60,713 nucleotides of DNA, taken from positions 1 through 60,713 of the forward strand of contig JAVHLK010000021.1 of the NCBI GenBank assembly GCA_031082285.1. Direction: 5' to 3'. Shown here one piece after another: positions 30,635-37,013 of this stretch. Origin of the DNA: Desulfomonilaceae bacterium. Lineage in GTDB: Bacteria; Desulfobacterota; Desulfomonilia; Desulfomonilales; Desulfomonilaceae. Each line of letters begins with the position of its first letter. The stretch's first letter is position 1. The translations under genes and the position numbers were made by a program. The notes under the pieces were generated by a model. That model was not told the DNA's origin. It worked only from the letters and a program-made list of their open reading frames with translations, and made no database searches.

Positions 30635-32065
30635 TCAGTAGATGTACGGCACGAATTTCCACGTCCGTTGTCGATACTCGTCGTATTCGGGGAAGCGGTC
30701 GGCCAGGATGCGCTCCTCTTTCTCGGACTTCACCACGTAGAGCACGGAAAAAGTCAACCAGAGGGGGACGCTTGCAATACTTCCGAACAAGAGGAGGTAC
30801 CCCAGGAATATCAGTATCAGACCGGTATACATGGGATGACGCACGAGTGAGTAGATGCCCGTGGTCACAAGCGTTCCGCTCCGTCTCGGCGCTGCGAACA
30901 CGCGGAAATTTCGGCCCAGTGAGCGCAAGCTCATGAGCGCGGCAATAATGCCTATCAATCCGATGCCCCCGGCTGCAATCTGCTGTACGGTCGAGACCTG
31001 CACGTGTCTCAGTGAGTGTTCCAACGGCGCGATAATCAGGATCAACGCCTGGCACAAGATGTATCCGACTGAGATTCCCCTCACGTCCTCTCCCCGGCGT
31101 TGCGGGTCGCGATGGGGTCTCGACAGGCTGAACGGCCCCTCACTTCGTCGGCCTCTTTCCAGAAGTACGAGGTACAGGATCCCCCAGTTGAGGTTGTACA
31201 CCGTCTCGAACCCCAATTTGCGAAGCATCACCGCTACGGTGGGCGAACGGTGACCGGAAAAGCATGTCACGAGTACCGGACGGTCCTTGGGCTTGTCGCG
31301 CGCGGCCTCCACTATGCCTTTTCCCCACGGAAAGCTCTCCGCTCCCTGCAATCTGTTCCAGTAGAATTCGGGTTTCGTACGAACGTCGACGATCCACGTA
31401 TCTTCGGGCAGACTCGTGAGCTTCCACGGCGCCAACGGACGTGCCCCGGCTGCAACGGTAACGATCTCGGTACCCAAGATCAGGTGGAGCAGGAGAAAGA
31501 ACTTGCTTGTACCCGGCCCTTCAAGGCCGTTCATGAGGTGTTCCCGTCGGACTCGTCGAACAATGAGCACGGTCTGCAGTACGTAAAGACAGGCCGCGAT
31601 GCCCGAGAGGAGCCGGGCGGAACTACTCCCGGTGACGATGCACAGAGCAACCAGTCCGAGTAGAAACGCAGTGGTGAGTGGATGAATGATCTGAACCGCG
31701 TGGACTCGAGCGAAAAGATGTCCATCGCGCGTGATGGAAGGAATGAAGAGGAAATAGCTCAAGAGGCTGCCGACAGACACGACAAAAAGGAACACCCCCG
31801 GTACGGCAACCGCGATCACGCCGATCAGCTCCACGCCGGTCAACTGCCGGGCCGTGAAGCCGGTTTCCACGAGGGCCGCTACGACGGCGCACGCAGTGAC
31901 GACGTAAAAGAGAACCGGCAGCAGACGGCTCTCTTCGAGCTTTTCCTGAAGTGTGCCTGAATTATGGGCTGGTCCGTTAACGATTGCGATCGCCCTCCCG
32001 AATCCCTTGACGGGGTTTTCAGCATCATTACGGCACATGGCCTCGAGCTTCAAGCCGTGAGACAT
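30635..32065 (-). CDS. membrane protein with central rhodanese domain and C-terminal isoprenylcysteine-methyltransferase-like domain
   Basis: The 476-residue protein has about five membrane helices in residues 50-210, a rhodanese domain at about 215-305 with WIVDVRTKPEF and the active-site loop CFSGHRS (Cys268), then a four-helix ICMT/PEMT-type module (345-476) ending GIYSLVRHPMYTGLILIF ... EERILADRFPEYDEYRQRTW. ICMT/PEMT modules methylate lipids or thiols at the membrane; rhodaneses carry persulfide sulfur. The combination suggests sulfur or thiol chemistry at the membrane, but this is inference. No ribosome binding site is seen before the ATG at 32065, so the start may lie further in. Confidence 0.75.
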   Translation of the reverse strand: MSHGLKLEAMCRNDAENPVKGFGRAIAIVNGPAHNSGTLQEKLEESRLLPVLFYVVTACAVVAALVETGFTARQLTGVELIGVIAVAVPGVFLFVVSVGSLLSYFLFIPSITRDGHLFARVHAVQIIHPLTTAFLLGLVALCIVTGSSSARLLSGIAACLYVLQTVLIVRRVRREHLMNGLEGPGTSKFFLLLHLILGTEIVTVAAGARPLAPWKLTSLPEDTWIVDVRTKPEFYWNRLQGAESFPWGKGIVEAARDKPKDRPVLVTCFSGHRSPTVAVMLRKLGFETVYNLNWGILYLVLLERGRRSEGPFSLSRPHRDPQRRGEDVRGISVGYILCQALILIIAPLEHSLRHVQVSTVQQIAAGGIGLIGIIAALMSLRSLGRNFRVFAAPRRSGTLVTTGIYSLVRHPMYTGLILIFLGYLLLFGSIASVPLWLTFSVLYVVKSEKEERILADRFPEYDEYRQRTWKFVPYIY

Positions 32066-32840: not shown

Positions 32841-33596
32841 CTATCGGTCGGATTCGGACAAACGTGACACATCTGCCTGCACGTCTCTGTCTTGAAAGAA
32901 TCCCGGATCGTCAAGATAGCGGGTGAGCGTCTCCCACTCGTCGATGTTCATGACCTCCTTCAGGAGAGGAAGTCCGACCGTTTTGAACGGTATGAGGCTC
33001 AAGAGATCAACGCCCGCGCGTTCCGCGGCTTCGTGCCCCCCTTGCTCTCGGTCAAGCACCACGAGGACGGTGCGGCACTGCACGTCCGTCAGATTTCTCC
33101 TGTCGACCTCATGCCGAACCTGTTCGAGAGCAATCTCCTTGCTGTCGAACCGGGTCACGAGATCGTCAACGAGCGCGATTCGATCCCCGGATGCCACTTC
33201 CCCCTCAAGCAGAGCATGCTCCCCATAGGACGATATGGCATCGCGTAGGGATTCCACGGATTTCACGTTCTCCATCTTCCGGGTGAAGCCGGCGGGAATC
33301 CCCCCGGCAACGGACATGCCCGCGGCGATGGGTACCCCGGCCATGGCAATTCCGATGACCTTCGTGATGTCCGGACATTCCTCACGTACCAGCCTGCACA
33401 TGGCCGTGCACACTTTTCGAAAAATGTCCGGGTACGAGACCAGCGGTCTCAACTGGATGTACAAGGGACTGTACAACCCGGAAATCAATGTCCAGCCTTC
33501 CGGTTTGTCCCGATGGAAGGTCCGAATCATCCGGTTTTCGTACAAGAGCTTCACTATCTCACCGGCCGCGTTCCTCTTTTCCTCTACCCATGACAT
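32841..33596 (-). CDS. orotate phosphoribosyltransferase-like protein
   Basis: The 251-residue type I phosphoribosyltransferase starts MSWVEEKRNAAGEIVKLLYE and has SGLYSPLYIQLR, the AMAGVPIAAGMS loop and the PRPP motif IALVDDLVTRFDSKE. OPRT joins orotate to PRPP in pyrimidine synthesis. The PRPP loop normally reads DxxTTGGS; here it is DLVTRFDS, so substrate use may differ. ATG 33596 (AGGAG at 10 bases) is preferred over an in-frame start 28 codons upstream. Confidence 0.8.
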   Translation of the reverse strand: MSWVEEKRNAAGEIVKLLYENRMIRTFHRDKPEGWTLISGLYSPLYIQLRPLVSYPDIFRKVCTAMCRLVREECPDITKVIGIAMAGVPIAAGMSVAGGIPAGFTRKMENVKSVESLRDAISSYGEHALLEGEVASGDRIALVDDLVTRFDSKEIALEQVRHEVDRRNLTDVQCRTVLVVLDREQGGHEAAERAGVDLLSLIPFKTVGLPLLKEVMNIDEWETLTRYLDDPGFFQDRDVQADVSRLSESDR

Positions 33597-34042
33597 GGAC
33601 TTGTTTCTCCTCAAGCCGATCGCTCGTGATGCCCGCGCGCTCGTGGGACCCGAGACAATGATCCTCCGACACTTCCTCACAATCGATAATGGAAAGCTGA
33701 ACGGTCACGCAAAACCGACAAATTGTCAAGTCAATTACCCGGAGAATTGTATGCACATACTCTTGGGCGAAACGAATCAATCTCGTTGATTTGACTACGC
33801 AAGAAAGGAGACATTACTTCTTTTCTCCGTCCTCCGGAGTAACGACGTGCAGCGATTGCCGGGGCTGTGCGAGCCGGTACAAGCATCGGTAAAGATCGAC
33901 GCCGCGCGGGGCCGGCCGCTTTCGCCATGTAGCCGTAGACGCTTTCGTCACCTGCTGTGGCCGCGGCTCGTTGACTAACAGGTCGATCTATTGTAAATCT
34001 ATAGCTCTTAACCTCGACTATCCCAAGTTTGGCAGGTAATCT
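33597..34042. other. divergent intergenic region
   Basis: 446 bp between the OPRT-like gene and the reductase-dehydratase fusion. GACAA-A-TTGTC, a small operator-like palindrome, lies near 33716-33726. Confidence 0.4.
33971..33999 (+). promoter_or_regulatory. candidate promoter for the reductase-dehydratase fusion
   Basis: TTGACT, 17 bases, TAAATC, ending 43 bases before the ATG. Confidence 0.4.
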
Positions 34043-35632
34043 ATGCTCACTGGCAAGAACATTCTCATCATCGGCGCGAGAGCCGGCGGATACGGAGCAT
34101 CCATTGCACAGGCCGCCGCGAGGGCCGGCGCCCGCGTTTTCGGTACTACGCTGGTCCCGGAAGATCAGCGCGAACGAGACTTCTTCAATGAAATCGAGAC
34201 AACCCTCATCGATGTGCCGCTCAGATTCGACATCGAAAAACGCGACCGCGTCTTCGAAGCCCTCACCGCCATCGAGGACCGCCTCAAGGCTCACGGCGTA
34301 GCCGGGCTGGACTCGGTAATCCACACGGTAGCCGGAGGCTTTCCGCGCCAACCTTCGGTCATGAAGGCAGTGGGGGATATTCTTAAGGGAAAACACACGT
34401 TCGTCGACATGGCCACCGCGGTCAAGAGAAACGTCTATTACGTGAATGCAGGATCCTTCGGCGACATCATGGAGGGATTGCCGAATCTGACCGATGATTC
34501 CACGCAGTATCTCGCGCTTACCTATCGGGGTGAGCTGCCGTACTTCATTTCCCACACGAAGAAGAACCTGGAGCACATAGCGCTTCGTGCATCCCGCAAC
34601 GGCAAGAACACGGTTGTTGCGGCCCTTCCCGAAGCCTGGACGCAATCATCGCAGTTCTTCACCGGAATAGAGATTGCCGTTCTCCACAATTATCTCAAAT
34701 ACTTGAAAAACAGAACCTCTGTTTCGGAAGACCTGGCGGACCGCTATGCCGTGATGGTGGAAGCCCTCGGCAAAGAGGAAGGGCTCGATCGGCTCGTCGA
34801 CGACATGCAAGGCTTTTTCCAACAGGACTGGTCTCGTATCGACCACGACTCGGACTTGGCGGAACTGTCTCGGGTCGTTCGTACCCTTTTCGCACGTTTG
34901 CGCAATGAAGGAACGTTTCCGATCCTTCGAAGGTCCGTTGAGATCATTTCGGATTTTGTCCGGGACGCTTCAGGAGTCATCGTTGTCCGTGAGGTTGTTG
35001 CCGGGCGTCGATATCAGTCCGGAGACGTGCGCCAGGTTCATTACGCAGATCTCCTTGGGCACACCACCATTCACAACGCCAAACCGCGCGAAAAACCCCC
35101 GATGAAATCGGTCGTCACGCGCAAGTGGGTGGAGTACGACAGGGACGATATCCGCCAAACACTGAGCATGTACGGGGAGAATTTCCTGTTCGTAGATAAG
35201 GTTGTGGCAGAAGCCGGCGAGGTCGTGGACGGGAAGATGGGCTTTGGTCGGTATACCGTTCCCACGCCGGAAGAGAACCCCATTCTCAGGGACCATTTTG
35301 TGGGCATGCCCCTGTTCGGCGGACATCTACAGATGGAGGCCGTGGCTCAGTTCGGCACCTTCATGATGTTACAGGCCCTCAGGGGGAAGAAACTGTTCCC
35401 CATCTTGACCGGAACCGAGTTTCCCGATCTCAACACCATGGCCCCTCCGGGCGAGACCCTGACCATGGTCGGGACGATCAGGTTCCGCGACAAGAGGGAT
35501 CTCGTCCTCGAGGCATTCATCGAGAATCGCTATGCTCGATCCAAGGGACTGATTCGCGGTATGATCCTTAACGAGCGGGTGATTCGTAAGATGCTGGGTA
35601 CCTTTATGTCGGGAAACCAAAACAATGGTTGA
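34043..35632 (+). CDS. FabI-like Rossmann domain fused to FabZ/FabA-like hotdog dehydratase
   Basis: The 529-residue protein has an N-terminal Rossmann domain, ILIIGARAGGYGASIAQAAA, with a SDR/enoyl-reductase-like Tyr167-x6-Lys174 (YFISHTKKNLEH) spacing as in FabI. From about residue 365 to the end it is a hotdog dehydratase: DHFVGMPLFGGHLQMEAVAQ carries the catalytic His418 and Glu432 positions of FabZ. This would put the dehydration and the enoyl reduction steps of fatty-acid elongation in one chain. Whether both halves are active is unknown. Start ATG with GGCAGG upstream. No other fab gene is near. Confidence 0.75.
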   Translation: MLTGKNILIIGARAGGYGASIAQAAARAGARVFGTTLVPEDQRERDFFNEIETTLIDVPLRFDIEKRDRVFEALTAIEDRLKAHGVAGLDSVIHTVAGGFPRQPSVMKAVGDILKGKHTFVDMATAVKRNVYYVNAGSFGDIMEGLPNLTDDSTQYLALTYRGELPYFISHTKKNLEHIALRASRNGKNTVVAALPEAWTQSSQFFTGIEIAVLHNYLKYLKNRTSVSEDLADRYAVMVEALGKEEGLDRLVDDMQGFFQQDWSRIDHDSDLAELSRVVRTLFARLRNEGTFPILRRSVEIISDFVRDASGVIVVREVVAGRRYQSGDVRQVHYADLLGHTTIHNAKPREKPPMKSVVTRKWVEYDRDDIRQTLSMYGENFLFVDKVVAEAGEVVDGKMGFGRYTVPTPEENPILRDHFVGMPLFGGHLQMEAVAQFGTFMMLQALRGKKLFPILTGTEFPDLNTMAPPGETLTMVGTIRFRDKRDLVLEAFIENRYARSKGLIRGMILNERVIRKMLGTFMSGNQNNG

Positions 35633-35921: not shown

Positions 35922-37013
35922 ATGAACTCATCCCGTTGGGACACCGGCAAAACCGAAGCCAAGCTTGTGGAACTCGAGGCGGTGCTTCGAGGCATCGGCA
36001 ACCAGCGCCTCCTTATCCTCTGCCACAACAACCCCGATCCCGATACGATCGCGAGCGCCTACGGATTCAGTTTTCTGCTCAGCAAGAGATTCGGCATCCG
36101 TAGCGTGCTGGGGCACGGCGGCGTGGTTACGCGGGCCGAGAATAAGGCTATGATCCAACGGCTGAGAATCAACATCACAAAGATGTCCAGGCTCGTACCC
36201 TCTCGCTACTTCGGCATTGCCGCGGTGGACTCACAACCGGGTACGGGCAATAATCTCCTTGCATCCAGAGGCGTGCTTCCTCTCATCGTCATCGATCATC
36301 ATCCGCTCCGAAAACTCTCGCGCAAAGTGGAATTCTACGATATCCGACCTACCTACGGTGCGACATCCACGATCGTCACCGAGTATCTCGTTGCAGCGGA
36401 CATCACCCCGACACGCCGGGTCGCCAACGCATTGCTGTACGGACTCAAGACCGACACGCATTCATTGGTCAGAACGTCATCGCCGAATGATTTCAAGGCG
36501 TTCAATTTTCTCTCACCGCTCACCAACCCCCGCGTCCTGGGCTATATTGAGAAGCCTTCCTTGGACCTGGAATACTTTGACGATCATCACCGCGGCCTGG
36601 CTCACGCGGTCCTGTATCGGGACGTTGCCGTGTCGTGCCTCGGGAAGATCCATACCGAATCCATTATTCCGGAACTGGCGGACCTCCTTCTGCGTATTGA
36701 CGGCGTCAGTTGGTCGCTGTGCATGGGAGAACTCAACGACCTCATGATCATATCCCTGCGCTCGACCTCCAGGAAGTACCGAGCCGGCACGGTGATCCGC
36801 CGACTCATCGGCAAGTCCGGCTTTGCCGGGGGCCACAAGGAGATGGCGGGCGGGCAGGTGCCCCTTTCCGGAATGAACTCCGGCGAAAAGGAGGAACTCC
36901 GCAAACGACTCGTCGAAAGGTTTCTCAGGCTTATCGATCGCCGCAATTGTGTTCCCAAACGCCTCGTCAATTCCGCAGAGCCTGCCGGCGAGGAATGCGA
37001 CGCGGAATTGTAG
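35922..37013 (+). CDS. DHH/DHHA1 phosphoesterase (NrnA-type or related)
   Basis: The 363-residue protein has DHH motifs HNNPDPDTIAS (35-45), VDSQPG (Asp103), DHHP (125-128) and a C-terminal DHHA1 domain with GGHKEMAGGQV. Bacterial homologues degrade nanoRNA, pAp or cyclic dinucleotides. Start ATG has no strong ribosome binding site. The family could not be narrowed further from sequence alone. Confidence 0.88.
   Translation: MNSSRWDTGKTEAKLVELEAVLRGIGNQRLLILCHNNPDPDTIASAYGFSFLLSKRFGIRSVLGHGGVVTRAENKAMIQRLRINITKMSRLVPSRYFGIAAVDSQPGTGNNLLASRGVLPLIVIDHHPLRKLSRKVEFYDIRPTYGATSTIVTEYLVAADITPTRRVANALLYGLKTDTHSLVRTSSPNDFKAFNFLSPLTNPRVLGYIEKPSLDLEYFDDHHRGLAHAVLYRDVAVSCLGKIHTESIIPELADLLLRIDGVSWSLCMGELNDLMIISLRSTSRKYRAGTVIRRLIGKSGFAGGHKEMAGGQVPLSGMNSGEKEELRKRLVERFLRLIDRRNCVPKRLVNSAEPAGEECDAEL

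Follow-up and report, generated by a model that had tools for sequence, protein, structure and literature searches.

A FabMG-type enoyl reductase joined to a FabZ-type dehydratase in Desulfomonilaceae, with a probable role in type II fatty-acid synthesis

The Desulfomonilaceae possess a protein in which an enoyl reductase domain of the FabMG type is followed, within the same chain, by a dehydratase domain of the FabZ type. In the window that was analysed here, a 60,713-nucleotide stretch of a Desulfomonilaceae genome, this protein of 529 aa is encoded by an intact open reading frame that begins with ATG (34043..35632, + strand). The fusion is real: sequence profiles, AlphaFold models and the alignment columns that it has in common with stand-alone FabMGs agree on it. 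Its sequence, its conservation and its predicted structure thereby bear out the original prediction of a reductase and a dehydratase in one chain, since the N-terminal half matches SDR models and the FabMG fold, and the C-terminal half matches the FabZ hotdog fold. Textbook type II fatty-acid synthesis employs one enzyme per step, with dehydratase and enoyl reductase normally being separate proteins. In the open-access literature, no description of a FabMG-FabZ or FabI-FabZ fusion was found, and as far as checked, FabMG-FabZ appears to be a new two-domain architecture built from known enzyme families.

The N-terminal domain comprises residues 1-340 (34043..35062, +). Pfam SDR models match the first 100 residues, and the FabMG family PF22046 matches residues 94-262 at 6.4e-10 with 38.8 bits, which is over the cut-off of 27. 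As stand-alone FabMGs score 640-690 bits on the same model, the N-terminal half has to be regarded as a remote member of this family. NCBIfam gives weak SDR matches for this half, and none of its FabI equivalog models comes near its cut-off, while the best sequence neighbour in the PDB is the FabMG structure 6ki9. A full-length AlphaFold2 model, built on an alignment of 14 relatives, has a mean pLDDT of 79.8, with low-confidence loops near the active sites (residues 98-126, 166-168 and 420-424). When this model was used in Foldseek, the top three hits were FabMG structures and the next ones belonged to FabI and FabZ, and VIA-align superposed it with FabMG 6kia over 328 residues (Z 27.8, rmsd 3.5), an alignment that includes the SDR core and the long projecting helices typical of FabMG. 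FabI is of the same superfamily and has the same predicted reaction, but its structural scores reach 23.7 or less, and its Rossmann loop and Tyr-Lys spacing are different. The initial designation of the reductase half as FabI-like thus needs to be revised, as Pfam, PDB neighbours, alignment and fold scores all place it nearer to FabMG.

Conserved positions point in the same direction. An alignment of 14 fusions and 8 stand-alone FabMG proteins, the latter taken from other families of the phylum, has 39 invariant columns, including G11, G15, G16, Y17, H94, AGG 97-99, P101, R102, Y161, Y167, K173, E177, P196, E197, S202 and S203, and with them the motifs HxxAGGxPR and PExxTxSS. G11, G15, G16 and Y17 belong to the Rossmann loop GARAGGYGAS (residues 11-20; 34073..34102, +), which was correctly recognized from the beginning. 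The catalytic pair had originally been given as Tyr-x6-Lys, but this was off by one, as it relied on the non-conserved Lys174; the conserved predicted pair is Tyr167-x5-Lys173 (34541..34561, +), which has the FabMG spacing and aligns with Y260/K266 of FabMG. Without these two residues, FabMG does not complement an E. coli fabI(Ts) strain, and it is only for the soil FabMG that such complementation and enoyl-ACP reductase activity have been published (PMC9260719). Similarities to FabMG extend over about 330 aligned residues, and differences lie in the low identity of about 20%, the shorter N-terminus, the absence of central insertions, and the attached dehydratase. The N-terminal half is therefore best described as a divergent FabMG-type enoyl-ACP reductase whose activity is predicted from sequence and model.

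A variable linker (residues 341-361; 35063..35125, +) with a mean pairwise identity of 34% leads to the C-terminal domain (residues 362-522; 35126..35608, +). Here, the sequence models respond weakly: a Pfam FabA/FabZ match at residues 380-447 is below threshold, and the FabZ matches in NCBIfam reach 21.3 of 155 bits (TIGR01750) and 25.6 of 113 bits (PRK00006). As these equivalog scores are not reached, we name this half FabZ-like. Its best sequence neighbours in the PDB are FabZ proteins, and the domain, when modelled alone (residues 349-529, pLDDT 80.9), adopts a FabZ-type hotdog fold that aligns with E. coli FabZ over 141 residues (Z 16.6, rmsd 2.8), with a lower score of 13.4 for FabA. His418 (35294..35296, +) aligns with the catalytic His in the GHFP motif of 1z6b, and Glu432 (35336..35338, +) with the catalytic Glu, which follows 14 residues later just as in FabZ; both positions had been assigned correctly in the original prediction. 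In comparison with the FabZ structures 6n3p, 3d6x and 3az8, the hotdog with its central helix and the HF...LQMEAVAQ signature are shared, whereas the identity of only about 20%, the position as C-terminal part of a fusion, the scores far below the cut-off, and the sequence GGHLQME in place of the PGVLQxE of FabZ are not typical. We regard the C-terminal half as a FabZ-type hotdog dehydratase, again with an activity that is predicted.

The exchange of PGV by GGH and the low FabZ scores could also be taken to mean that one domain alone is catalytic and the other structural or regulatory. We consider this very improbable, as His418 and Glu432 as well as Tyr167 and Lys173 are invariant in the relatives from 14 species, and the catalytic regions of both domains are about equally conserved, with mean pairwise identities of 67% for residues 1-222 and 70% for residues 362-522, against 46% in the helical part (residues 223-340).

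How does this architecture relate to known systems? A FabZ domain located C-terminally to another enzyme is found in LpxC-FabZ fusions (NCBIfam PRK13188), but there the partner is a lipid A deacetylase and not a reductase; PRK13188 matches our protein with 24.3 of 465 bits in the FabZ region only, and Pfam gave no match to an LpxC deacetylase domain at the N-terminus. Dehydration and enoyl reduction are also combined in one polypeptide in type I FAS/PKS systems, but these carry KS, AT, ACP and KR in addition, and their DH and ER domains are of other families and in another order. A further consideration concerns the substrates, since some SDR enoyl reductases (FabV/TER group) also reduce enoyl-CoA, and the fusion might accordingly convert 3-hydroxyacyl-CoA to acyl-CoA in a reverse beta-oxidation or a fermentation. 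That fatty acids and CoA metabolism sustain these organisms, as indicated by PMC7773648, would fit such a function. We nevertheless hold it to be improbable, because the closest solved relatives of the two domains, FabMG and FabZ, are both ACP enzymes, and neither a thiolase nor an acyl-CoA dehydrogenase occurs among the conserved neighbours.

The fusion is present in all 18 Desulfomonilaceae genomes without any second copy, at 57-65% identity, although in three of them (G009, G012, G017) it is divided between contigs or truncated where a contig ends; the genome of the window has 5.6 Mb and is 99.9% complete. Outside the family, no match was found in 24 genomes of the sister family, and a profile search of 247 genomes of the phylum gave full-length matches in Desulfomonilaceae only, with the others being single-domain matches. 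Weak FabMG matches in two genomes (G255 and G296) were judged to be due to chance, as they lie in a long ORF beside an apparent RNA polymerase gene. A single-sequence scan of 84,980 species detected no relative, plasmids gave no match, and an alignment query returned 14 public loci whose titles are of the Desulfomonile type or name related deltaproteobacteria; as this query used two family-specific peptides, distant fusions could be missed by it.

The gene neighbourhood is conserved as well. Upstream and divergent lies a phosphoribosyltransferase-like gene (32841..33680, -), which is pyrE-like but below cut-off, and downstream a DHH/DHHA1 phosphoesterase gene (35922..37013, +; PF01368/PF02272), each of them syntenic in 12 loci. 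In the complete genome G005, the fusion gene adjoins rpsB-tsf-pyrH-frr-uppS-cdsA-dxr-like genes, the names being read from the sequences. An own promoter had been suggested for the gene, but a promoter scan found no sigma-70-like promoter upstream, and only the divergent upstream neighbour hints at a separate transcription. Rfam gave no match within the window. That the gene is isolated from the fab cluster holds true, as this cluster is located on another contig (G000:C243).

With respect to function, it is most relevant what the remaining fatty-acid synthesis genes can and cannot provide. NCBIfam was used to check FabD, FabG, ACP and FabF of the window's genome. FabF exceeds its cut-off in 16 of the 18 family genomes, and in the five Desulfomonilaceae genomes that were inspected there is a fabD-fabG-acpP-fabF-glyA cluster that contains neither a dehydratase nor an enoyl reductase. 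The FabZ model, which responds in 9 of 14 control genomes, exceeds its cut-off in none of the 18 Desulfomonilaceae genomes, where its sole weak matches are the fusions, and a broader FabA/FabZ superfamily model likewise finds the fusion alone in this family. A BLAST search with E. coli FabI, for which an approximate query sequence was used, detected a convincing FabI in one of the 18 genomes (G005; 42% identity), which was then confirmed as FabI. Its gene (L134:7191-7979) is located away from the fab genes, between a glycogen phosphorylase gene and a gene for a 739-aa protein without NCBIfam match. Within the class, nothing exceeds the cut-off of the FabK model, and for FabV no match was obtained, nor did the control give one. 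FabK-like proteins well below the cut-off exist in several Desulfomonilaceae genomes, including that of the window; two that are far below it are encoded at L127:1498-2442 and L129:1498-2445. The FabK-like gene of G008 may well be catabolic, as an acyl-CoA ligase-like gene lies on one side of it and an enoyl-CoA hydratase-like gene on the other.

Most simply, these findings can be read to mean that the fusion supplies both missing type II steps. We think it probable that it is a bifunctional enzyme which works in type II fatty-acid synthesis as the general partner of the individual FabD, FabG, ACP and FabF proteins; its likeliest role would be to dehydrate and reduce the intermediates of membrane fatty-acid synthesis in general. 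Mechanistically, the C-terminal hotdog domain with His418/Glu432 would dehydrate 3-hydroxyacyl-ACP, and the N-terminal reductase domain with Tyr167/Lys173 would convert the resulting trans-2-enoyl-ACP to acyl-ACP, using NAD(P)H that is presumably held by the GxxxGGYG loop. By analogy with FabZ, in which the active site is shared by the hotdog dimer, the fusion should dimerize through its C-terminal domain. The coupling of both steps, possibly with channelling of the intermediate, would pull the reversible dehydration towards the product. It is even possible, and we propose this tentatively, that Desulfomonilaceae replaced FabZ and FabI by the fused FabMG-FabZ, which then would be the sole essential dehydratase/enoyl reductase of their type II membrane fatty-acid synthesis.

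The position of the gene outside the fab cluster and the FabK-like proteins in several genomes of the family count against a general role. The confidence in a housekeeping function is further limited by the fact that the family has type I FAS/PKS-like synthases with ER, KR and DH domains of their own. In each of the 18 Desulfomonilaceae genomes, one or more large proteins, typically of about 2,600 and 3,500 aa, include a FabK-like ER domain, and two such proteins of G005 also hold KS, AT, ACP, KR and DH domains. In another sulfate reducer that lacks fabA and fabZ, a synthase of this kind has been put forward as the core fatty acid synthase (PMC3098273). In Desulfomonilaceae, giant synthases are encoded at L132:8674-16599, L133:384-10958, L130:5408-13447 and L131:2-7177; those of about 2,640 aa have the order FabK-like ER - KS - AT - ACP - KR - DH, and those of about 3,520 aa the order ER - KS - AT - ACP - KR - DH - phosphopantetheinyl transferase. 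The fusion could therefore be a working dehydratase-reductase of a side pathway, e.g. for the tailoring of acyl chains for these synthases, for pimeloyl (biotin) or for another acyl precursor, with the bulk of membrane fatty acids coming from the large synthases or via an unrecognized dehydratase.

The sister family (f2) adds weight to this alternative. It also has a fabD, fabG, acpP, fabF cluster (L174, L175, L176, L177), but FabA/FabZ was not found in 23 of its 24 genomes, the remaining one giving a partial match, and the fusion is missing as well. Presumably some unrecognized dehydratase exists there, and as the sister family does without FabZ and without the fusion, such an enzyme may exist in the class, perhaps also in Desulfomonilaceae, which limits the confidence that the fusion fills the gap. 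A side pathway nevertheless appears unlikely to us: the large synthases, with ER, KR and DH of their own, could do without the fusion, the separate fabF-acpP-fabG-fabD genes are retained and have no other visible partner, and the fusion occurs no less universally than the housekeeping genes that surround it. For related reasons, we do not favour the specialized lipid, polyketide-like or cofactor pathway that had originally been considered; it is less likely than the general role, as the fusion is universal, single-copy, placed among housekeeping genes in G005, and supplies the activities that the fab cluster lacks.

If the general role in type II synthesis applies, a universal fusion that fills the fabZ/fabI gap would explain how these sulfate reducers complete elongation, and it would correct genome annotations that list these pathways as incomplete. 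A DH-ER unit would then exist outside type I synthases, offering a natural system for the coupling of dehydration and reduction, and the little-known triclosan-resistant FabMG family would be extended. The wider puzzle would be the sister family, which is without FabZ yet also without a FabMG-FabZ replacement.

As a side observation, the window also encodes, at 30635-32065 (- strand), a 476-aa membrane-type protein with rhodanese and ICMT/PEMT-like methyltransferase domains, which is conserved at this location in 8 relatives.
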